Part shown: one piece after another, positions 5,812 through 24,377 of the stretch
How positions within the stretch are numbered: position 1 is the stretch's first letter
Layout of the letters: every line of letters begins with the position of its first letter
Virus record (IMG/VR): IMGVR_UViG_3300049855_000106
Span: 1-25,775 of that record
DNA from: a virus
DNA length: 25,775 nt
Strand: one strand, 5' to 3'
Made by a program: the position numbers and the translations under genes
Notes under the pieces: model-generated
Seen by the model: only the letters and a program-made list of their open reading frames with translations
What the model was told of the DNA's origin: nothing
Database searches by the model: none

Positions 5812-7091
5812 CCTTTCGTCTTACCTTCCAAGACGCTCAACATGATCGACGATAGTTTTTCGAGTTTGTCGCTAAGAGCGTCGACGGTCGCTTTTAGCTT
5901 TTTAGATTCATCTGATTTCGGAGCTTCTGGCTTTGGTGCGTCTGGCTTCGGCGCTTCTGGCTTCGGTTCTTCTGGCTTCGGTTCTTCAGTAGCGTCTAGT
6001 TCCATCTTCGCTAGTATCTTCGCAACGCCCTCATTCATTGACGAAATCATCGAAGCCATGCGCTTCATCTCGTCGAGCATCTCAACCATTTGCTGTTCCA
6101 TAGCTGCCCCTTGTGTAACGTCTTTTTTAAGCTGTCCGATTACTGATTTAATCCCGTCGGTGATGTCAATCGTGCGAAATGACCCCTCGACGAAATCTCC
6201 TGGCTCTCTTTGCCGCAGACGCCAAGAGTCTTCGGTTTCGTCAACTTTATCGCTTCTAAAATCGTGAGCCTTTGCCCAGTCTTCGGCTTGCTTACGATCG
6301 AATTTACTCTTGTCGAAAATTAAACTTTGTACGGTCGTAGTCGCTTGCTCTTTTGATTGCTCTATTTCGATTTTCGCTGCGTCGGCGTTGTTTGTCAAAT
6401 CCTTAGCCACCGCAAAGACCTTTTTACGCGATTCTGGCTCGTATGACTTTAAATCGAACACAGCCCCAGGATTAGCTGGAACGGCTACTATCGACAATTC
6501 TAGCAGCTCCCAGGCTAGTATAACTGCGGGTGCGGTTAATTTGCCCTCGCCGTCGAATTCTGGCGCTTTGACCTTGTGCGGGATGAAACCGACCGAGACG
6601 GTACGTAGTAGCTTTTGAGCTACGAGAGATCGGGTATTGATTTGAGTTTGAGTGAGCGGCGCAAGTTTAGGATCGCCGATAAACGCTTCGAAATGGACGC
6701 CATCATGCTCCGATCGAATATCGACAACATCCCCAACAACGCACGATGTCGCGTACATGTGATCGACGAGGAGTACGCGATTGACCATAAAATTTTTGAT
6801 ATCGATACCGACCGGATCTAGTCGCTCGTCCATTCGATCGACAGCGTTAGCGTTAGCCACGCCAGCAATGTACAGCTTCGACTCAGGATCGTAGCTGGAC
6901 ATTTCCTTGCGCTCACCATGGACGCTTTTGATTGCGCCGTTCATGAGACGGAAACCGTCTGGCTTCGGCGCGAGTTGCTGCCCGCTGCGTGCGACCGCGT
7001 CCATAAATCGCTTAGTCATCACGCCGCGCTCGTGTAGCATCTCTCGATATTTTTTAACGGCGGATGGTTCGCCTACAATCTCAACGGCCAT
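5808..7091 (-). CDS. HK97-type prohead protease fused to scaffold-like tail
   Basis: A 427-residue protein with an ideal AGGAGG 9 nt before the ATG. Residues about 70-215 form the S78-type serine protease domain: LLVDHMY gives the likely catalytic His111, LLRTVSVGF gives Ser166, and ELLELSIVAVPANPGA (196-210) is the conserved downstream strand. Residues 258-320 carry IFDKSKFDRKQAEDWAKAH and SWRLRQREP, a module common in phage protease/XkdF-like proteins. A proline-charged EPKPE repeat (369-395) and a C-terminal helical segment follow, as expected of a scaffold. The protein would organise the prohead and cleave itself and capsid N-termini. No separate scaffold gene lies between it and the capsid, which supports a fusion. 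Confidence 0.87.
   Translation of the reverse strand: MAVEIVGEPSAVKKYREMLHERGVMTKRFMDAVARSGQQLAPKPDGFRLMNGAIKSVHGERKEMSSYDPESKLYIAGVANANAVDRMDERLDPVGIDIKNFMVNRVLLVDHMYATSCVVGDVVDIRSEHDGVHFEAFIGDPKLAPLTQTQINTRSLVAQKLLRTVSVGFIPHKVKAPEFDGEGKLTAPAVILAWELLELSIVAVPANPGAVFDLKSYEPESRKKVFAVAKDLTNNADAAKIEIEQSKEQATTTVQSLIFDKSKFDRKQAEDWAKAHDFRSDKVDETEDSWRLRQREPGDFVEGSFRTIDITDGIKSVIGQLKKDVTQGAAMEQQMVEMLDEMKRMASMISSMNEGVAKILAKMELDATEEPKPEEPKPEAPKPDAPKPEAPKSDESKKLKATVDALSDKLEKLSSIMLSVLEGKTKG
5922..5987. repeat. 15-bp tandem repeat inside the protease gene
   Basis: Four to five imperfect copies of GCTTCTGGCTTCGGT encode the (E/A)PKP(E/D) repeat. Such tracts can change copy number by slippage, altering linker length between protease and C-terminal helix. 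Confidence 0.75.
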
Positions 7092-7094
7092 AAT

Positions 7095-9584
7095 CTATCT
7101 ACCTCCTGTGATCGTGTCAGCGTTTGATTGAGCGTCTTTAGGTATTACGGACACCATGGAACATCTGCAGTTAATGACGTCACTAGCGCCGCCTTGAGGA
7201 TCTCTAGGATATTTGAGGCGACCGCCAGTTGTAGGATTTACCCATGTGTAGTTTCCCGATACTACGCCGCTCTCACCAGCATTTTCAAACTCAGCGTGTT
7301 CGACTCGCGCCATTGGGTTAGAGCCCGCGTCGCCGACGTGGAACCATTGCTTATTTACTTTTGTAAAAACTTTGTTGAGCGTCTCGTGTTGCCAATTCAC
7401 GCCGTCGGAAACCCCAAATAGAGTTTCAGTACGAGCGATCGTAAACGCTTGGTCGCCGTAGTTTTCGCCGTATTTTTGTTCGATTCTTTTAGCTGTCTGC
7501 TCTAACGTTTCGCCCTTTGCTAACGATTCGTCGATGATTCGCATAATGTTTTCCGTCGAATGCGAATCGAATCCGAAAAACGATTGAATGTTGCGCGCCT
7601 CAAGCGTTGCTCGTTTGCCATCTTGCGTTTGCTGCTTGATTGCGTTAATCGCTGCTACGTCTTGTGGCGTAAATTCGTAGCCTTTTTTCGATATGCGCCC
7701 GATCGATCTCGTTTGCGTTTGCGCTAATCCAAAACCACGATCCTGCGCATCGGCTAAAACGCGTACCGCATCGCGCCGATACTGTTCAGCACGTAGCGGT
7801 TGCGTATTGTTTAGATACGATTCTAACGCCATTTTATTCATCCCGTCGTTTACCGCTTTTTTTTCTTGCTCAAATTTAAGCGTTAAATTGCGATCGTATG
7901 ATTGCATGTAACGCTTACCGATCGTAGCTTCGACGTTCGCTTGTGCATTAATTGCCGACGCTTTTATGTACCCAAACTTTTTTTTTTCATCGTCGTGCTC
8001 TACTGGCGGGTGCGTATGACCATCAGCTCCTCCGACTTGTACCTCATAGCCTACGATCTCGTGATCGTGAGGCGCAGTGTCGCCGATAGTCGATGTCGTC
8101 GATCCGTTACCAATAGCGTCAACGTCAGCCGTGTGCGTGTGTTCGTCTTCGCCGTCGCCCGGTAATAGATCAACCTCTACGACCGCACCGACCGCATCCT
8201 CTACCGTCCCTAGGTCAGCTAGTGGCGTTGGTGCGGTTGTAGAGGTCATGCCGTAGGGATCTGGCGTTGCTGATCGTATAAGCTCGACTAGCATCATCTT
8301 GCCGCGCGGATCTGTCGGTTTAAGCTTAGGCAATCCTGCGATCTCTCGTTGCTCGTTGATTAGCGCGATGTTGTCGAGTGCTCTAGCCTCTTGCGCTCGC
8401 GATAATATGCCGCCCTTGAAAGCTTCGATCTTTTCGAGGTCTACAACGATTTCGATCTCGCCCTTAAACTTGCGCTGCACGATATCCGATTGATTCCAGC
8501 CACTCGCTTTAAGCTTCGCGAGCGGTAGAATCGTATTGACGTAAAATGTTTTGTCCTCTGCTTCGCTTGTCGATCTGTTGACGTCTTGTACGATACCGAC
8601 TTTCGACGGCGGTACGCCGAGCACTGCGAGTAGCGTTAATCTATTCTCGCGTAGACCTTCAAGGTGTTCCATTTCCGCCATTGTGAGCCCGGCGTTTACC
8701 CATTTCGCGCCTTTTGGCAAAAAGAGCTGGCGGAACCAGTTTCGACGACCTGAGAAGCTGCTTTCGAATGTACGCATCAAGCGTTCCATGCGGCTTTTAG
8801 TGATATCTTCAGTCGTTTCGATTACGCCTGCGTTAGTCGCACCGCGTAGATAAAACGCCATCTCGAATTCGTTTTTATGACGATCGAGCAAGATCGGTCG
8901 CGCTGCTGCTGCTACCATTGACATACCGATAAACGGCGAAAAAGGATTAGGTATCTTGTGATGTATAACGTCTTTCCACTCGATAAATCGCGATTCGATA
9001 TATGGTCCGCCGCCGCGATGACTACCCTGTATATCTATCCCCATGATGGGACCATATTTCTTACGCTCTTGTGCGTCGGATACCTTGAGCGTCACTAACT
9101 CTACGGGTACGTGATAGATTTGATCGCCGTCGACAATTTCGAAGAAGTTACCACCTAGAATTAGATCGAGATTGCCCGCCCAATCGAGTGAGAAACCGTC
9201 TTGAATTTGATTACCGCTTTTTAGAATCATGTTCATCGGATGATTAGCGTCGATCTCGCCCGTCTGTCTGTCTTTTACTGCAAAGGGTACAGTCGCTAGC
9301 GTACGAGCGATAAGCGATGCGGTCGTATAAACCCATGGCTCGCGACGATAGAGCGACTTCATTTTCCCCGCAGTAGCGATCAATTCAAATTCGGGTTGAA
9401 AGTGCCCGTCTGACCCATCTGCCAACTCATCTACGTTGCTAGGATCGAGTTGCTTTTGTATTGCTGCGTCGATCAACGTACGCAATCCGTTAAATTGCGC
9501 CATATCTACAGCAACGTCATCTCTCGCGCGATCGATCGTTAGCGTAGTTGTTGGCGCGATTAGCGCCTTATCAAAAGGCCACAT
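7095..9584 (-). CDS. Portal protein fused to MuF head morphogenesis domain
   Basis: An 829-residue fusion with AGAGGT 4 nt before the ATG. Residues 60-440 resemble HK97-type portals: SLYRREPWVYTTASLIARTL, LDLILGGNFFEIV, FSPFIGMSMVAAAARPI, and LLAVLGVPPSKVGI with the following long helix. Residues 479-533 are a His/Asp/Gly-rich linker with EHTHT, PHDHEI and DGHTHP motifs, a recurring insert in phage head proteins and possibly metal-binding. Residues 680-815 are a MuF/SPP1 gp7-type domain: ARTE, then HAEFENAGE, LKYPRDPQGG and NCRC close to the end. The portal ring is the DNA entry channel, and the MuF domain is usually internal and needed for infection. Fusions of the two are known. Terminase lies directly upstream and protease starts 3 nt downstream. 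Confidence 0.9.
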   Translation of the reverse strand: MWPFDKALIAPTTTLTIDRARDDVAVDMAQFNGLRTLIDAAIQKQLDPSNVDELADGSDGHFQPEFELIATAGKMKSLYRREPWVYTTASLIARTLATVPFAVKDRQTGEIDANHPMNMILKSGNQIQDGFSLDWAGNLDLILGGNFFEIVDGDQIYHVPVELVTLKVSDAQERKKYGPIMGIDIQGSHRGGGPYIESRFIEWKDVIHHKIPNPFSPFIGMSMVAAAARPILLDRHKNEFEMAFYLRGATNAGVIETTEDITKSRMERLMRTFESSFSGRRNWFRQLFLPKGAKWVNAGLTMAEMEHLEGLRENRLTLLAVLGVPPSKVGIVQDVNRSTSEAEDKTFYVNTILPLAKLKASGWNQSDIVQRKFKGEIEIVVDLEKIEAFKGGILSRAQEARALDNIALINEQREIAGLPKLKPTDPRGKMMLVELIRSATPDPYGMTSTTAPTPLADLGTVEDAVGAVVEVDLLPGDGEDEHTHTADVDAIGNGSTTSTIGDTAPHDHEIVGYEVQVGGADGHTHPPVEHDDEKKKFGYIKASAINAQANVEATIGKRYMQSYDRNLTLKFEQEKKAVNDGMNKMALESYLNNTQPLRAEQYRRDAVRVLADAQDRGFGLAQTQTRSIGRISKKGYEFTPQDVAAINAIKQQTQDGKRATLEARNIQSFFGFDSHSTENIMRIIDESLAKGETLEQTAKRIEQKYGENYGDQAFTIARTETLFGVSDGVNWQHETLNKVFTKVNKQWFHVGDAGSNPMARVEHAEFENAGESGVVSGNYTWVNPTTGGRLKYPRDPQGGASDVINCRCSMVSVIPKDAQSNADTITGGR

Positions 9585-11758: not shown

Positions 11759-12523
11759 TTAGCTAACGTAGATAGATGCGTCGATACTAGCGTCATCATA
11801 TAACTGTTTTGCTAGAGCACTAAAACCGAAAAAATCTTTTACTTGCTCGATCGTCTCACAAACTGCGCCGCTATGACGATCGCGCTCTCCCTGCCAGTGC
11901 GTTCGATCTATTTTTTGACACACATATAAATTGTTTTTAGTTTTGTAAAGACGCAAGACTCTGTAGCGTCCTACGCTTCCACTAAAGTGATAATGCGATT
12001 GATCGGGATTAGTAGACGCTATCGAAATTTCATCGCCTTCAAATTTTAAATCAGCGTCGTTATCTCTCTTGACTATTATCACGCTATCACTCCCTTCCTT
12101 TACTGCGCATACATATTCGATTTCGTCTTCTTCGTGCCAATCGCCTTCGTCGTATGCTAATGCTGAGTTGCGTAGCTCTCGTTCAAGATATGATGTAGCA
12201 ACTTCGTCTCCATCTTCATCTACTATTTCTGCTTCAGTAACATATAGCGGAAATTGTCCGTCTGGATTTGTAATCGTGACTTGCGACGCTTTATTAGATT
12301 TATGCTCAAAGTCGTAGATCAATGTAACAGTAACGTCGTCAACATCAAGCGTACGAGTTATATAACCGATCTCTTTATCGTATTTTACAAGACATTCGTC
12401 GCCGTTTTCGTCAGTGCTGTAATCGCTCACTTGAATCGAATCGACGTAGTCTATACATGTTTCGATATTTGATGCGTTAGCGTTGATTTGTGCAATTAGA
12501 TCGTTGATAGCTATAGTTTTCAT
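11759..12523 (-). CDS. Highly acidic protein of unknown function, separate unit
   Basis: A 254-residue protein. The start MKTIAINDLIAQ at 12523 is chosen because AAGGGG lies 6 nt before it; an upstream extension would start before that site. By my count about one fifth of residues are Asp or Glu, roughly twice Lys plus Arg, in several runs (DEDGDEV, EEDEIE). No known domain is recognised. It has its own strong promoter with an operator-like palindrome and its own terminator, so it is the one clear single-gene unit in the window. Strongly acidic early phage proteins often act as DNA mimics or inhibitors of host enzymes; that is a hypothesis only. It could equally be a structural accessory protein. 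Confidence 0.7.
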   Translation of the reverse strand: MKTIAINDLIAQINANASNIETCIDYVDSIQVSDYSTDENGDECLVKYDKEIGYITRTLDVDDVTVTLIYDFEHKSNKASQVTITNPDGQFPLYVTEAEIVDEDGDEVATSYLERELRNSALAYDEGDWHEEDEIEYVCAVKEGSDSVIIVKRDNDADLKFEGDEISIASTNPDQSHYHFSGSVGRYRVLRLYKTKNNLYVCQKIDRTHWQGERDRHSGAVCETIEQVKDFFGFSALAKQLYDDASIDASIYVS

Positions 12524-12593
12524 GAGAGACCCCTTTTTACTTTCGCAGAGACACTGCCGCGAAACCAGTTTTCGACTCACTGTCGATAAAGAG

Positions 12594-12622
12594 ACTATGC
12601 GCTATCGTTAAACGATAGTCAA
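12594..12622 (-). promoter_or_regulatory. Sigma70-like promoter with palindromic operator in the spacer
   Basis: On the minus strand TTGACT (12617-12622) and CATAGT (12594-12599) are separated by exactly 17 bp. The palindrome CTATCGTTAAACGATAG (12602-12618), containing the 13-bp core at 12604-12616, fills the spacer and overlaps the -35. A protein bound there would block RNA polymerase. The transcript would start near 12587 and give a leader of about 64 nt to the acidic protein gene. Confidence 0.75.
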
Positions 12623-12655
12623 GCTTTTTTGTTGATAGTACCAAATATTTTTTGA

Positions 12656-12683
12656 CGTTCAGTAATCATATGATTATTGAACG
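12656..12683. repeat. 28-bp near-perfect palindrome
   Basis: CGTTCAGTAATCAT followed by ATGATTATTGAACG pairs with itself apart from one mismatched position, centred on CATATG. No U tract follows on either strand, so it is more like a protein-binding site than a terminator. It lies about 35 bp upstream of the -35 at 12617. A smaller CGTTCA/TGAACG inverted repeat occurs at 12720-12751. Confidence 0.6.
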
Positions 12684-12753
12684 ATCGAGGGAATTGCTCG
12701 CATAGCTTACTATGACATGCGTTCAGCATCTTTTAGGGGGTTTATTGAACGTC

Positions 12754-13506
12754 TTAGCGTATCAGTGTCCAAAAGTCATGGGATAAATTCTCGTCGAGAA
12801 GATACGCATAGGGCATGAAAAAATCGCCGCCGTATCCCCACGCCGAGCCCCACGAGTTTCTGATACGCATCACTTGTGCGCGATCGTCCCAGCCCACCAT
12901 CATGACGGCATGACCGCCTTGCGCTTCTTCGCCTTTGCCAGGCATCTTTAGCATACCGTCTTTTTTGATGTCGTAGATCGACTCGTAGACCGTGAAGCCA
13001 AATACGATCGGGTTATTTGCAAAAAGTTGCTCTTTGAATGATTCGATACTGCGGTTGACGCGTGCGTATTCAGTGATACGATGCTTTGCAGCTTCCGCGT
13101 TTGCTTCTGCCGATGGTTCTACTTTGTACTTTTTAACAACGTAAGGCCACGTAGCTGATCTACACGCACCATATTTGGCTAGCTGTTTCATGCCTGTTCG
13201 CAAATACGAACCCGAATCGATCGTTAGATTTCCGTCTATAAACCGCTGCCACCAGTACATTTGCAAAAAAGATGGTTTCGTTAGATCCGAGTTAGCTGCG
13301 CCGAATTCGATCTCGGTCATTTGCAAAGCTGCGCCGCAAGCATGAGCAACGCACGACCCTAGACGACCTTGATTGTAATGCGCTGGCAACAAATGCGCGA
13401 AAGAGAAGGTAGCGGGATAAGCAACCGCAGCTTTACGCTCCGGCGCTTTTGCTAAAAAATCTCTATCATCTTTTTCGTCTCGTAAGCATCCGAAAGAATG
13501 TCGCAT
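12754..13506 (-). CDS. Papain-like (C1A) cysteine peptidase
   Basis: A 250-residue protein with AGAGGAC before the ATG. The full papain catalytic set is visible: YNQGRLGSCVAHACGAAL gives the oxyanion Gln46 and nucleophile Cys52, GGHAVMMVGWD gives His199, and IRNSWGSAWGYGG gives Asn217. The order and spacing match family C1. No signal peptide or long propeptide is seen; the N-terminal 35 residues are too short for a typical inhibitor prodomain. It would hydrolyse peptide bonds, but the substrate is unknown: candidates are virion proteins, host proteins, or cell-envelope peptides during lysis. A one-helix membrane protein is encoded just upstream in the same direction. C1A peptidases are unusual in phages compared with CHAP or NlpC/P60 enzymes. 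Confidence 0.9.
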   Translation of the reverse strand: MRHSFGCLRDEKDDRDFLAKAPERKAAVAYPATFSFAHLLPAHYNQGRLGSCVAHACGAALQMTEIEFGAANSDLTKPSFLQMYWWQRFIDGNLTIDSGSYLRTGMKQLAKYGACRSATWPYVVKKYKVEPSAEANAEAAKHRITEYARVNRSIESFKEQLFANNPIVFGFTVYESIYDIKKDGMLKMPGKGEEAQGGHAVMMVGWDDRAQVMRIRNSWGSAWGYGGDFFMPYAYLLDENLSHDFWTLIR

Positions 13507-15961: not shown

Positions 15962-16588
15962 TTAATTTATCCGTGTAGGTCTCAACCGTTTAAATTTACC
16001 CGCCTCGTTTACAGCGACTTCGAACGTAGGTACGTCGTCTTTTTCCATTGAATCACCGGCAGCGTCTTCAGCTATTTTTCTAGCATCCTCAACGCCGATG
16101 TTGTCGGTGCTCATACCCAAAGCTAGTCTCTGTACTCGTTGCACCGATTCTAACGCTTTAGCTAAATTTATCAATTCAAAAGTCTTAACGTTATCCTCGC
16201 TTATCATTCTCTCCAAATGCGCGCATATCGTCTCCTTGATCCTAGCTGCGGCAATGTAGTCAGTGCGACATTGCTCGATCCGCCATCGCCTGATATCGGT
16301 TAGAACTCGTTCTCGAATAGCATTGAACGAATTCTCGTCTAGATTTTTTTGCAATGCTGCTTTTGCTTGTAGTGTTATCTCTTTAGTCTGTGCCCATGTT
16401 TTTGTTTTCGCTCTAACGTATAGCTCATCAGGATCAACGCCCTGTGACACGAGAAATAACGACAGGCGCTCGTAGTAAGCATCTTTAATCCATAGATCGT
16501 GTAATTTTTGCCAATCGTAATCAGCATATTTAGCTTCGCTAATACGCGACGTAACTGGCTTTGATCTTTTTGCTTGCTTTTTACTCAT
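15962..16588 (-). CDS. terS: Probable terminase small subunit
   Basis: A 208-residue protein starting MSKKQAKRSKP. Residues 24-60 (YDWQKLHDLWIKDAYYERLS onward, with the GVDPDELYVRAKTKTW turn) fit the helix-turn-helix that many small terminase subunits use to recognise the packaging site. Residues 75-155 are long helices ending in LAKALESVQRVQRLALG, the typical oligomerisation end of this family. The acidic C-terminus could contact the large subunit. The gene lies about 5 kb from terL with a dozen small genes between them, an uncommon distance. It is first in its unit, directly after a perfect ATCGTTWAACGAT site. The Shine-Dalgarno is weak. Assignment is from architecture, not a diagnostic motif. 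Confidence 0.62.
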   Translation of the reverse strand: MSKKQAKRSKPVTSRISEAKYADYDWQKLHDLWIKDAYYERLSLFLVSQGVDPDELYVRAKTKTWAQTKEITLQAKAALQKNLDENSFNAIRERVLTDIRRWRIEQCRTDYIAAARIKETICAHLERMISEDNVKTFELINLAKALESVQRVQRLALGMSTDNIGVEDARKIAEDAAGDSMEKDDVPTFEVAVNEAGKFKRLRPTRIN

Positions 16589-16614
16589 ATCTCATATTCT
16601 ACTTGCTTCTTATT

Positions 16615-16627
16615 ATCGTTTAACGAT
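16615..16627. promoter_or_regulatory. Perfect ATCGTTWAACGAT palindrome in divergent region
   Basis: ATCGTTTAACGAT, extended to 15 bp by TA ends, lies between the divergently read small-terminase unit and the plus-strand small-gene unit. On the minus strand its end supplies GATAAT (16612-16617), a good -10 candidate; the -35 is weak. On the plus strand TTGCTT (16603-16608) could be a -35. Either or both units could be controlled. Confidence 0.65.
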
Positions 16628-16643
16628 ATTAGCTTAATTATTA

Positions 16644-16699: not shown

Positions 16700-17014
16700 A
16701 TGATTATCGACTACGACCCAACGGGTAAAACGATCTTGTGCCCAGCAAAGCTTGGTATCTTGATCGACGACGAGGAAAGACTAACCCAAGTCGCCCACAA
16801 AACCCTTAGTTTAGGCGATTTAAGCATCGATGACGGCAAAAAGCTTAAGATGCAGCTATTGCAATCGCGTAGAAATCTCGGCGACTATCTCACCATGACT
16901 AGATACTCGATTATGGAATTGCTTACTGTTTTGAACGAAGCGGTTGAGAATAACGACGTTATAGATAAGCGTTTGGTCGATATTCGCAACAAACACTTTG
17001 CAAAATACAACTAA
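16700..17014 (+). CDS. Small hypothetical protein, first of plus-strand unit
   Basis: A 104-residue protein with AAGGGA 6 nt before the ATG. The N-terminus MIIDYDPTGKTILCPAKLGI is beta-like; the rest is helical with LLQSRRNLGDYLTMTRYSIM. It opens a four-gene plus-strand run against the prevailing direction and lies next to an operator-like palindrome, a layout usual for early or regulatory genes. No family recognised. Confidence 0.7.
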   Translation: MIIDYDPTGKTILCPAKLGILIDDEERLTQVAHKTLSLGDLSIDDGKKLKMQLLQSRRNLGDYLTMTRYSIMELLTVLNEAVENNDVIDKRLVDIRNKHFAKYN

Positions 17015-18046: not shown

Positions 18047-18253
18047 CTAGCGTTTGGCGTCTTGGATCGAAACGAAATCGTGTATGACCTTGCGTAGCAC
18101 TTCGCTCATTTTCATACCCCACGCCTCGCTAAACTCCATTAACACTTGCTTATCGCGCCCGCGTACTTTAACGCCAATAAATTGCGTATCGCTAGGATCG
18201 ACTCGCGATTTCCTCGTTCGCGGCTTGACGGGATGTATTGCCGGTCTAGTCAT
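18047..18253 (-). CDS. Ribbon-helix-helix (Arc/CopG-type) DNA-binding regulator
   Basis: A 68-residue protein. After a basic N-terminal arm (residues 1-20) comes a beta strand TQFIGVKV (23-30), a helix RDKQVLMEFSEAW (33-45), a GMKMS turn and a second helix EVLRKVIHDFVSI (51-63): the ribbon-helix-helix fold of dimeric repressors, whose strand enters the DNA major groove. Such dimers and tetramers bind short palindromes. It is the only clear small DNA-binding regulator in the window and lies in a unit headed by a perfect ATCGTTWAACGAT site, so it is a candidate autoregulated repressor. The ATGA-type overlap with the preceding gene suggests coupling. The binding link is inference. Confidence 0.78.
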   Translation of the reverse strand: MTRPAIHPVKPRTRKSRVDPSDTQFIGVKVRGRDKQVLMEFSEAWGMKMSEVLRKVIHDFVSIQDAKR

Positions 18254-18546
18254 AGCTCTCCTCGTGCCTTCGCCGTCAAAAACGCATGTAGCAACTCGTT
18301 AACGAACGTCTTTTGTCGTTGCGATAGGTGTTTAAATCGCATGTGGTTATCAACGTACCACGTGTAATACACCCCAGGCTTAAGCGTCGGCATCTCTGCG
18401 ATTGCCGCGTTTATCAGCTCGGCAGCTTCTGGCAGTAGCTTACCATATGTCGGCCCATACTTTACTGAGTAAGACGCCCATCGATGAAACGCGGCGATAA
18501 TGATCTCAGCGTGACAATTCTCCAGCATCTTCGTGTTAGTGATCAT
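18250..18546 (-). CDS. Hypothetical helical protein
   Basis: A 98-residue protein starting MITNTKMLENCH in an ATGA overlap with the preceding small gene; GGGAG is 8 nt upstream. Helical throughout, with AAFHRWASYSVKYGPTYG and HLSQRQKTFVNELLHAFL. Its size and context, between a tiny gene and the ribbon-helix-helix gene, suggest a regulatory or accessory role. No family recognised. Confidence 0.7.
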   Translation of the reverse strand: MITNTKMLENCHAEIIIAAFHRWASYSVKYGPTYGKLLPEAAELINAAIAEMPTLKPGVYYTWYVDNHMRFKHLSQRQKTFVNELLHAFLTAKARGEL

Positions 18547-18707
18547 TTACGCGTCTCCCAGTACAAATCGATAACTTGCCGCATATTGGCGACGACGCTA
18601 CCACGCAAAGGCGTCGGCGTTTCGTAGTAGCGTTTTTTAGCTTCTTTGAGTTTTAATCGAGACACCGCGCAGTATTCGCGCAATGTCTTAGCGGTCTTGC
18701 TGTTCAA
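18543..18707 (-). CDS. Tiny basic protein with TTG start
   Basis: A 54-residue protein, first in its unit. TTG at 18707 follows GGAGG by 9 nt, and no ATG is available nearby. Sequence begins (M)NSKTAKTLREYCAVSRLKL and continues KEAKKRYYETPTPLRGS; very Lys/Arg/Tyr-rich and helical. The stop overlaps the next start (ATGA). The basic composition suggests nucleic-acid contact. It lies 30 bp from an operator-like site. Confidence 0.6.
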   Translation of the reverse strand: MNSKTAKTLREYCAVSRLKLKEAKKRYYETPTPLRGSVVANMRQVIDLYWETRK

Positions 18708-18737
18708 CGTGCCCGCCCTCCTTGTGGTTAGGTCAGT

Positions 18738-18750
18738 ATCGTTAAACGAT
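18738..18750. promoter_or_regulatory. Perfect ATCGTTWAACGAT palindrome
   Basis: ATCGTTAAACGAT lies between the primase-helicase stop and the unit of the ribbon-helix-helix regulator. On the minus strand its end gives GATACT (18735-18740), a -10 candidate; the -35 is poor. It probably controls the 18707-to-17762 unit. Confidence 0.65.
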
Positions 18751-18757
18751 TTTTACG

Positions 18758-20593: not shown

Positions 20594-21883
20594 TTACGCC
20601 GAGGGTATTTCGTTCGTATCGCCGAGGCAATACCCCAGTTTAGACGAGTGATGTTCGCCGAGCTTCGGCTCGACGTCGAGTAGATCGCCGTAGAATCGCT
20701 CTAGTTCGACGCGTATGTGCGGCCAGTCCCCACGAGAGAGCGATTTAAACTCAGCGTCGTTGAGGACGTTGACTAAATTATTAGCAAAGTCGCTTGGTCG
20801 CTTGTCGGGTGTCGTTCGATTTCGATGGGGAATGTCGAGATTCCATGTTCGCTTACCGGTTAAATCGACCTCGGGTACGCCTACGCAAAAAACGAACCAC
20901 AGAAGAGCTGTAATACCCCCTCCGTAGCTTTCGAATGTTCGGGTAAGGTTATATCGCTCCTTCCTAGCTGCTGGCGCTAGTGACGGCGTTGGACCCATCC
21001 ACGGAGGTGTTACCGCACCGAAGCCGTTTGTAAGCTGCGATCGTGACCAAATATCCGCCGACGCCTTGATAAATCGATCGTTGTATATTCGCCATCGCTC
21101 GTTTAGCTCTTCTTTCGCGTCTTTCGCCGTTTTTTTATTTTCGATCATCTTCGCAAGGTAGTCACCGCCGATTAGATCTTCGTAACGATGTTCGATTAAT
21201 TCAGGAGCGCCGTACGGTACAGTATACTCGCTGAATCCTTGAAACGTTCGCGCCGGTATCTCAGTGTATTCGCTACGTCTGTGTCCCCATGATAGCGATG
21301 TTTGTATAAAACGCTTACGTAGATGATCCTCGCGAAGATGGAATATCGATCGAAAAGCGTCGTTTACGTATATAGTCTGCGTTTCGCGCTTCATAGAGCC
21401 TTTACACTTATCGTCCCAACGACTCGTATCGACTACGATCCAACCGTAATGAGCGAATAAACGTAAGCGACGACGTATCGCTCCGATACAAATCCTCTTG
21501 TTAAGCTTACGTGATATCTCTTCTGCGGATAATTTAGTCGAAAATGTATTACTAGTCTTAGTTTCATCGATCGAACGAGCTATTATCATCGTAAACATCT
21601 TGATAGATGACCCATCGAATATTTCGAGAAACGTTTCTTGTTTATGAGCAAGTGATTGATCGATAAAATCGTCTAGAAAAGCTGTTATACGCAGCATTAA
21701 GTCTAATTTCATATCGCTACTCCGATCGACCGAAAATCGTTTATCGCGACTTGGGTTTGTTTTCGCCCGACGACGAGCGACGCGATCGTAGTGACGAACG
21801 TTACTAGTATAATATCTATACGTAGTATCCGACACTGTAGTGACCTGCGGACAGAGCATTGTAATGTCGTGGCTACAGGACAT
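20594..21883 (-). CDS. Putative winged-helix replication protein
   Basis: Up to 429 residues. The start is uncertain: ATG at 21883 has only a distant GGAAG, whereas ATG at 21712 (372 residues, MKLDLMLRITAFLDDFID) has GGAG 7 nt upstream and an ATGA overlap with a smaller frame. Residues about 115-150 counted from 21883 (LSAEEISRKLNKRICIGAIR and RRLRLFAHYGWIVVD) fit a winged helix. The rest is a large domain with aromatic and basic segments I do not recognise. Location directly before the primase-helicase and after an operator-like site suggests a replication initiator or loader. It could instead be a regulator. Confidence 0.6.
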   Translation of the reverse strand: MSCSHDITMLCPQVTTVSDTTYRYYTSNVRHYDRVARRRAKTNPSRDKRFSVDRSSDMKLDLMLRITAFLDDFIDQSLAHKQETFLEIFDGSSIKMFTMIIARSIDETKTSNTFSTKLSAEEISRKLNKRICIGAIRRRLRLFAHYGWIVVDTSRWDDKCKGSMKRETQTIYVNDAFRSIFHLREDHLRKRFIQTSLSWGHRRSEYTEIPARTFQGFSEYTVPYGAPELIEHRYEDLIGGDYLAKMIENKKTAKDAKEELNERWRIYNDRFIKASADIWSRSQLTNGFGAVTPPWMGPTPSLAPAARKERYNLTRTFESYGGGITALLWFVFCVGVPEVDLTGKRTWNLDIPHRNRTTPDKRPSDFANNLVNVLNDAEFKSLSRGDWPHIRVELERFYGDLLDVEPKLGEHHSSKLGYCLGDTNEIPSA

Positions 21884-22022: not shown

Positions 22023-22048
22023 TGTAGAAGATCTAAACCGGAAAGTAT

Positions 22049-22061
22049 ATCGTTAAACGAT
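22049..22061. promoter_or_regulatory. Perfect ATCGTTWAACGAT palindrome before replication genes
   Basis: ATCGTTAAACGAT, 15 bp with its TA ends, begins 6 bp after the SSB-like gene stop. On the minus strand TATACT (22044-22049) overlaps its edge as a good -10 candidate; the -35 is unclear. A protein bound here would block the promoter of the replication unit. Confidence 0.68.
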
Positions 22062-22066
22062 AGTCG

Positions 22067-22979: not shown

Positions 22980-23741
22980 TTAAACCTTCCTATCGTGTAT
23001 TTTAAAACCCATATCGATCGCTTTCGCTTCGTATAGCGCAGCGACGTGACTAAAACCCAATTCTTTTTGCGCTGGTAACACTATCTCGCCAAGCTCGCAC
23101 AGAATGCCCGTGCGGTCTTTTGCCGCGATTCTGGCGCTCGGTCGAAACGTGATGCAGTGACGATAGTTCTTATCGACATACATATGCCCAACCGCACGCA
23201 CTACGCCATCGAGAAATTGAGCGCCTTTGTTGCCGCTAAATTTCGGCGATTTACAAATCACTTCCTCGATTAACCCTGATTCGTTCGTGATTTCCTCCTC
23301 CTTTTCGACTTGATGCGATATAAACCGCACGCTCGTTTGATCGAGTAAACTCGTCAACCAGCCGCGCCATTCCTTGTTTACGTCTGCCCACGACTTGCCG
23401 AAGTCTTTTTTCTCGCCCGGGTACGCTATACCAAGGCGTCTACAAACATCATCGCGACAATAGTCGTACAGGTTATCGACGATATCGATGACACAGCTCG
23501 AAACGTCGTGTGGGTTAGCTTTATTCATCGCAGCTATTTCGATAACAGTTCGCTGAAACGTGTTCCAGTCTCTCGTGCGTACCGCTCTCGTCTGTACAAA
23601 GTCTGCGCCCGGCTCCGCTGCGACGGTAACAGTATCAGCGTCGCCGTTGCAGCCCATACCCTGCCGACCAAAAATCAAAATCGGTAAATTTGCAAACTTG
23701 GGGACGTAGTTTACGACGTTTCTTTCGGGGATTAATCCCAT
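22980..23741 (-). CDS. Sak4-like RecA-fold ATPase with degenerate P-loop
   Basis: A 253-residue protein with GAGGT 4 nt before the ATG. The order of elements matches phage AAA_24/Sak4 recombinases: a P-loop strand LPILIFGRQGMG (19-30), an acidic strand VAAEPGADF (40-48), a Walker B-like SSCVIDIVDNLYDY (81-94), a helix KSWADVNKEWRGWL and a strand VRFISHQVEKEEE. The P-loop is broken: the Lys-Thr/Ser of GxxGxGKT is replaced by Cys31-Asn32 (GMGCNGD). Either nucleotide is bound differently or the protein is a non-catalytic partner. Sak4-type proteins act with SSB in strand annealing, and an SSB-like gene lies two genes downstream. Confidence 0.7.
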   Translation of the reverse strand: MGLIPERNVVNYVPKFANLPILIFGRQGMGCNGDADTVTVAAEPGADFVQTRAVRTRDWNTFQRTVIEIAAMNKANPHDVSSCVIDIVDNLYDYCRDDVCRRLGIAYPGEKKDFGKSWADVNKEWRGWLTSLLDQTSVRFISHQVEKEEEITNESGLIEEVICKSPKFSGNKGAQFLDGVVRAVGHMYVDKNYRHCITFRPSARIAAKDRTGILCELGEIVLPAQKELGFSHVAALYEAKAIDMGFKIHDRKV

Positions 23742-23824
23742 TTGTACCTCGTTTCATTTAGGTTTCTCTCGCGTTTAATTTGACAATAAACGCACGATAT
23801 CACCGTCCTATGGAAAAAACCACT

Positions 23825-23837
23825 ATCGTTTAACGAT
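23825..23837. promoter_or_regulatory. Perfect ATCGTTWAACGAT palindrome in divergent region
   Basis: ATCGTTTAACGAT lies between the minus-strand recombination/replication unit and the plus-strand RuvC-like unit. On the minus strand GATAGT (23822-23827) is a possible -10 at its edge. One site could control both directions. Confidence 0.66.
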
Positions 23838-23882
23838 TTAGTGTACTAAGATCGAAAAAATAAGATGCGAGGAGCTGAAATC

Positions 23883-24377
23883 ATGATTGTAGCGGGCATC
23901 GATCCAGGTAAACGTGGGGCAATTGTAGCGATAGATAGCAAAAGCGACAAGGCTTGGTATCGTAAACTCACGTATAATAGCATGGGCATACTTACTAACG
24001 ATTTAAGGTTATTCGATAGCGTTGAAATCTTCATCATAGAACACGTTCGCGGTCGTGGTGGTTGGGGTGCTAGTCAAGTTTTCGCTATGGGCAGCTATTT
24101 CGGGCAGATACTTAAAACGATCCATGATAGCGGCAAACCTTATGTACTTGTAGAGCCAAGGATTTGGACCGCATTGATGTATCGCGATATCGATGCGAAA
24201 AGCTACAAAGGCAAAGAGCGCAACAAAGCGGCGTATATCGATTTTTGTCCCCATGACCCTATCGGCTTATCCAAATGCGGCAAAGGCCACCACGACGGCG
24301 TTATAGATGCTATGTTGATCGCTATGTATCATCTAGCACAATCAGAGAGTAAAATCAGAAAATGGAAATTCCAATAA
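23883..24377 (+). CDS. RuvC-like Holliday junction resolvase
   Basis: A 164-residue nuclease of the RNase H fold. The ATG at 23883 has GAGGAG 8 nt upstream; an earlier ATG at 23865 precedes that site. The metal-binding acids are visible in order: VAGIDPGKRGAIVAID (Asp7), FIIEHVRGRGG (Glu53) and GHHDGVIDAMLIA (Asp138, Asp142). WGASQVFAMGSYFGQI is the usual segment after the second acid. It resolves branched replication or recombination DNA before packaging. It is read divergently from the Sak4-like unit, with a shared operator-like palindrome. No signs of truncation. Confidence 0.9.
   Translation: MIVAGIDPGKRGAIVAIDSKSDKAWYRKLTYNSMGILTNDLRLFDSVEIFIIEHVRGRGGWGASQVFAMGSYFGQILKTIHDSGKPYVLVEPRIWTALMYRDIDAKSYKGKERNKAAYIDFCPHDPIGLSKCGKGHHDGVIDAMLIAMYHLAQSESKIRKWKFQ

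Follow-up and report, generated by a model that had tools for sequence, protein, structure and literature searches.

A palindrome within a promoter spacer and a predicted RHH autorepressor with dispersed operators in a tailed phage

The DNA analysed here, referred to below as the window, is a whole virus record of 25,775 bp, 95% of which is coding. It belongs to a tailed phage and includes genes for terminase, portal, protease and capsid proteins as well as a sheath-like gene. The portal protein is encoded by one 829-aa frame (7095-9584) with a weak C-terminal Mu gpF-like match. On the minus strand, an orphan gene at 11759-12523 encodes an acidic protein of 254 aa; its ATG lies at 12523 and is preceded by a Shine-Dalgarno-like AAGGGG at 12530-12535. 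No relative of this gene was found among viral contigs, and searches of Pfam and PHROGs with its product gave no family match better than chance. The adjoining gene, at 12754-13506, encodes a papain-family (C1) cysteine peptidase (Pfam PF00112, E = 1e-13), for which no convincing homologue was seen among the relatives examined.

Upstream of the acidic-protein gene, the sequence confirms a TTGACT hexamer (12622..12617) and a CATAGT hexamer (12599..12594) that are 17 bp apart on the minus strand, as the original prediction had stated. The spacer, ATCGTTTAACGATAGCG, runs from 12616 to 12600, and a 17-bp palindrome, CTATCGTTAAACGATAG, occupies positions 12602-12618. The palindrome was said to fill the spacer exactly and to touch the -35 box. 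It does lie in the spacer and reaches 2 bp into the -35 box, but it covers only 15 of the 17 spacer bases, and 2 bp (CG) remain between it and the -10 box. The arrangement is that of a sterically repressed sigma-70 promoter, with boxes 16-18 bp apart and an overlapping operator, and transcription would be predicted to start near 12587. The sigma-70 assignment is itself an assumption.

The promoter had also been described as strong, and here the scores do not follow. The pair matches 9 of 12 consensus bases, with CATAGT (4/6) a mediocre -10 box; shuffled sequence is expected to yield 2.4 pairs of this kind per kb. Of random places in the contig, about 98% have a lower weighted score (p = 0.017), and the comparison with shuffles of the local flanks gives p = 0.047. 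It is nevertheless the sole promoter-like pair that the scanner reports within 12000-13000. From its sequence, we regard this promoter as plausible rather than strong.

The palindrome is a member of a family, with nine strand-matches at three or fewer mismatches in the window against 0.13 expected. Its core, TCGTTWAACGA, occurs six times, at 531, 12605, 16616, 18739, 22050 and 23826, and all six copies are non-coding, although genes overlap all but 4.3% of 11-mers (p ~6e-9). Over 15 bp, three copies are perfect, two have one mismatch and one is weak, giving the consensus TATCGTTWAACGATA. The weak copy, GATCGTTAAACGAAT, is at 529-543, 76 bp upstream of the gene at 2-460; the copy in the promoter spacer is the second. 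The third, which is perfect, is at 16614-16628 in a divergent intergenic region between a terminase-small-subunit-like gene (15962-16588, minus strand) and a gene at 16700-17014 (plus strand). A similar site is found upstream of the terminase-small-subunit-like gene in one related phage, G001, with weaker ones in G002 and G004. The fourth copy (18737-18751, one mismatch) follows the helicase gene and precedes the operon at 18707-18047, which encodes a predicted ribbon-helix-helix (RHH) protein. The fifth (22048-22062, perfect) lies upstream of a replication-type gene (20594-21883, minus strand), and no operator of this kind was seen at the replication-type gene in relatives. The sixth (23824-23838, one mismatch) separates a Sak4-like gene (22980-23741, minus strand) from a divergent RuvC-like Holliday junction resolvase gene (23865-24377, plus strand), and is conserved in G001, G003 and G004.

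It had further been proposed that the sites evolved with promoters at three other copies, where GATAAT (16614), GATACT (18737) and TATACT (22048) overlap the palindrome edge. The hexamers exist, but they lack good -35 partners, and the promoter scores at these three copies are at p = 0.13 or worse against local shuffles. GATANT is present at six of the eight GATA edges (p = 0.006), and at the 16614 copy it flanks the palindrome on either side. Since GATA is the palindrome's own ending, only a T two bases further on is needed to complete it. The edges are thus better read as a T at operator position +9, and the three hexamers were rejected as -10 boxes. An A at -9 or a T at +9 recurs around 16614-16628, 18737-18751 and 23824-23838, from which the operator may perhaps be 19 bp long.

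Downstream of the fourth copy, the minus strand holds three overlapping frames: a 54-aa ORF (18543-18707) between the operator and gene X, assigned to the same operon by its overlap; gene X itself (18250-18546), encoding an all-helical protein of 98 aa; and, directly after it, a gene at 18047-18253 encoding a 68-aa protein, the proposed repressor. The AlphaFold model of this protein (pLDDT 87) has helices at residues 32-45 and 49-67 after an extended stretch, which corresponds to the short N-terminal strand and two helices of the RHH fold. Lists of structural matches from Foldseek and VIA are dominated by RHH proteins, among them CopASO, PutA, KacA, NikR, CopG, AmrZ, Arc, SvtR and omega, with Z of 5-6.5 over 44-48 residues; these values are modest because the domains are short. 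A sequence profile of the protein finds the RHH repressor ORF56 (E = 0.0036), and three of nine homologues match RHH_1 weakly (best E 0.019), while the window protein alone matches no RHH family. On the strength of the model and the homologues in related phages, we predict that 18047-18253 encodes an RHH protein. The structure search matched the product of gene X to no known fold.

Relatives of the window were found by helicase and terminase searches. They are uncultured phages with the same gene order, and their replication or terminase proteins are roughly 41-64% identical to those of the window. TerL searches of genome-database contigs found no relative, and the phage collection yielded only distant TerLs (best ~31% identity). 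Within this group, the primase/helicase at L007:10001-12532 has an apparent intein, including a LAGLIDADG-like insert, at its Walker A motif (GKC...HNTT), and TerL frames of 700-830 aa, compared with ~470, at L023:4006-6222, L127:911-3322 and L131:35-2227 suggest inteins or other insertions. Homologues of the RHH protein are present in eight distinct relatives of a first set and in three later ones, that is, in 11 phages besides the window. In these carriers, the RHH gene always directly follows a gene X homologue and overlaps it (start codons being those of a mechanical listing). A direct search with an alignment of the RHH pair gave no match, and the homologues came from inside the syntenic loci; gene X is conserved too little for its alignment to serve as a search query. 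In two relatives, the X-RHH pair is followed downstream by another paralogue of the RHH gene (G006:2916-3125 and L128:7294-7530).

For autoregulation, a symmetric matrix was built from the window's five sites outside the RHH operon and applied to the 300 bp upstream of gene X in the eight relatives. The best sites were GATTGTTAAACAATA, TTTTGTTGAACGTAT, TTTTGTTATACGTTT, AAATGTTTAACAATA, AATCGTTTGACAATA, TTACGTTTAACGAAA, TAGCGTTTAACTTAA and TTTTGTTTAACAATA. With the window excluded, these eight give a Fisher p = 1e-8 against first-order shuffles. Against segments of the same contigs, a background that includes other operators, p is 1e-5. The combined values pool phages of shared ancestry that are not fully independent. 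Taken singly, the sites upstream of gene X are weak in G002, G003, G009, L128 and L134. In the three later phages, a matrix of the X-upstream sites gives p values of 0.05, 0.12 and 0.004. Sites before the RHH operon are conserved across divergent phages.

Conservation extends to other places. With the X-upstream-site matrix, the divergent RuvC intergenic region scores in the window and in three relatives, G001, G003 and G004, with p values from 0.001 to 0.006 in each when compared with shuffles; leaving out the window and counting in the non-carriers G002 and G005 gives a Fisher p = 3e-5. Sites upstream of TerS and of the sheath gene in relatives are weak (p ~0.01-0.02), and no conserved operator was found upstream of the relatives' helicase, SSB, rep and tube genes. 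One relative, G005, has the replication genes but neither gene X nor the RHH gene, and the site is missing at the positions tested in it, including RuvC and the protease linker described below; the co-loss of operator and RHH gene rests on this one phage.

In G001 (the contig of L006), the operator has its own form, ATTGTTWAACAAT, also given as ATTGTTAAACAAT, where the window has ATCGTTWAACGAT, so that the arms read TTGTT instead of TCGTT. The 11-mer core of the G001 palindrome occurs three times in the whole 51.5-kb contig, and one copy lies after the helicase gene and before X-RHH, in synteny with the window's 18737 copy. A comparison by eye of the RHH strand residues with the variable operator base showed no clear pattern.

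Across the collected operators, sigma-70-like pairs that overlap a site score above those in shuffled flanks (p = 8e-7, 27 site-strand tests), and the X-RHH promoters alone give p = 1e-6. The operator overlaps the -10 box in G001, G002, G004 and G009 and the -35 box in G006, and lies just past the -10 box in G010. The in-spacer geometry was seen once more, at another gene of G001 (42479), where TTGACC-N18-TATAAA encloses the palindrome, which starts 18 bp before the -10 box, at the same offset as in the window. This is the only relative with that geometry; elsewhere the sites overlap the -10 box, the -35 box or the start region. Taken together, the sites before X-RHH in eight relatives, the co-absence in G005, the promoter enrichment and the spacer geometry in G001 support the original prediction that the palindrome is a repressor site, with the RHH protein as its putative binder.

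A further set of sites lies inside a gene. In several relatives, an operator-like palindrome is found in the linker of the prohead protease/scaffold gene, upstream of the capsid gene (G001:30936, G002:39246, G003:22977, G004:22784, G007:7254 and G010:20309), in a poorly conserved stretch of the protease 12-35 codons after PxN. Over eight phages, it stands out against synonymous codon shuffles at p = 9e-9, and a later set of 22 sequences, some of them near-identical, gives p = 6e-7 with strong sites in L021, L027, L032, L035 and L037. The site is absent from the window and from G005; the window's protease gene has tandem 15-bp repeats at 5911-5987 that encode a proline-, lysine- and glutamate-rich repeat. 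All clear linker sites share a codon phase, mostly [ST][LF]N, which leaves some room for a constraint on the protein. No promoter was detected near the protease-internal sites (p = 0.74). We tentatively raise the possibility, at well below an even chance, that this operator belongs to the RHH regulon, is conserved in most RHH-bearing relatives at the DNA level to a degree that the protein does not demand, and acts as an elongation roadblock tuning capsid against protease. If so, a roadblock just upstream of the major capsid gene would balance the expression of the two.

These internal sites, conserved in many relatives, bear on how the RHH protein would act in general. It might block elongation or form a nucleoprotein structure, in the manner of stoperators or segregation complexes, instead of excluding polymerase from promoters, and at several of the window's operator copies no promoter stands out convincingly from local shuffles. 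On the other hand, the intergenic copies as a whole show an excess of promoter-like pairs, and the site at 12602-12618 is within a core promoter; we therefore consider this unlikely as the general mode of action.

The operator could also be real and be bound by gene X, or by an X-RHH complex such as a toxin-antitoxin-like co-repressing pair. The constant position of gene X, directly before the RHH gene and overlapping it, resembles bicistronic antitoxin operons, and one study describes RHH antitoxins in such operons, RelB/RelE, as autoregulating with their partner (PMC2812701). However, it is the RHH protein that has a predicted DNA-binding fold, while the product of gene X has no known one, and sites at replication and terminase operons are unlike ordinary toxin-antitoxin operators. 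We judge this arrangement quite improbable.

Still less probable, in our estimate, is that the palindrome is recognised by a transcription factor of the host or by a different phage factor, with the RHH operon merely one member of its regulon. A host factor is conceivable, and the palindrome does stand at several operons. Against it, the site itself varies between related phages (TCGTT to TTGTT), the carriers, considered jointly, have it at the RHH operon, and it is missing at the tested positions of the RHH-less G005. Finally, the scanner reports one terminator-like site, the hairpin 12601-12619 with its following T run on the plus strand, but an intrinsic terminator is highly improbable and was rejected, given a stem with only three G-C pairs (0.8 such sites occur in shuffles), flanking genes that are both on the minus strand, and copies of the same palindrome elsewhere without such a T run.

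Our preferred reading is a viral RHH autorepressor with six dispersed operators, which blocks RNA polymerase at the 12602-12618 promoter; judged from sequence, we give it a probability of roughly 0.7. In this model, the palindrome at 12602-12618 would be one of six operators for the phage's own RHH protein (18047-18253), whose dimers, like those of other RHH factors, would be expected to bind DNA through a paired beta-strand and to sit side by side on two half-sites through the major groove. With protein bound there, the spacer and the margin of the -35 box would be occupied. The host's sigma-70 RNA polymerase could then neither bind nor open the promoter, and the acidic-protein gene would stay off. 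The same protein would repress its own operon through the site at 18737, along with operons for replication, terminase and other functions, and the circuit would amount to an autoregulated switch that times or damps the infection programme. We infer binding by this protein, repression rather than activation as its effect, the start site near 12587 and a host with a sigma-70 polymerase.

The phage group is uncultured, and the searches made here turned up no close relative among cultured phages or in genome databases. For such a group, the proposal supplies a regulatory scheme that is open to test, made up of a single small RHH protein, a defined operator and the operons that it would target. 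Viral RHH regulons have been described in archaeal viruses, and the proposal would extend them to tailed phages. The natural operator variants, with TCGTT or TTGTT arms and each paired with its own protein, should be useful for studies of specificity.

Among known systems, Arc of phage P22 has the same local geometry, with an operator placed between the -35 and -10 boxes of the ant promoter. Like the window's predicted protein, Arc is a phage RHH repressor, and its structures are among the fold matches (1myk, Z 5.6; 1par, Z 5.1). The known role of Arc is local, in the ant/arc/mnt region, and Arc is not known to have a genome-wide set of sites; no sequence homology was found. The plasmid proteins CopG and ORF56 share the fold, and ORF56 is the best sequence-profile match. 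CopG autoregulates, but these proteins serve plasmid copy control and are not known to act at dispersed phage sites. Mycobacteriophage stoperators are many genome-wide sites for one phage repressor, each asymmetric and bound by a monomeric repressor that also stops elongation (PMC9283540). The window likewise has many copies of a site for one putative phage repressor, but its site is a near-perfect palindrome rather than an asymmetric monomer site, and many copies are at promoters.

The nearest likeness is to SvtR of SIRV1 and AvtR of AFV6, RHH regulators of archaeal viruses, which repress their own genes and bind several sites in the viral genome, including one at a structural gene (PMC5569661). 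Eight potential sites are described for AvtR, and they are conserved among homologous genes within the genus (PMC5569661). The predicted fold of the window's protein matches SvtR (2kel, Z 5.3), and the systems share a small viral RHH protein, self-repression (presumed, in the window) and dispersed sites. As with SvtR and AvtR, a site precedes the protein's own operon, in the window and the eight relatives taken together, and further sites are conserved at other genes, here the RuvC/Sak4 intergenic region of four phages. The archaeal systems differ in their promoters and in their imperfect inverted repeats, and no sequence relation to them was found. The most likely reading of the sequence data is that the window phage has a system of the SvtR/AvtR kind, in an undescribed phage group.
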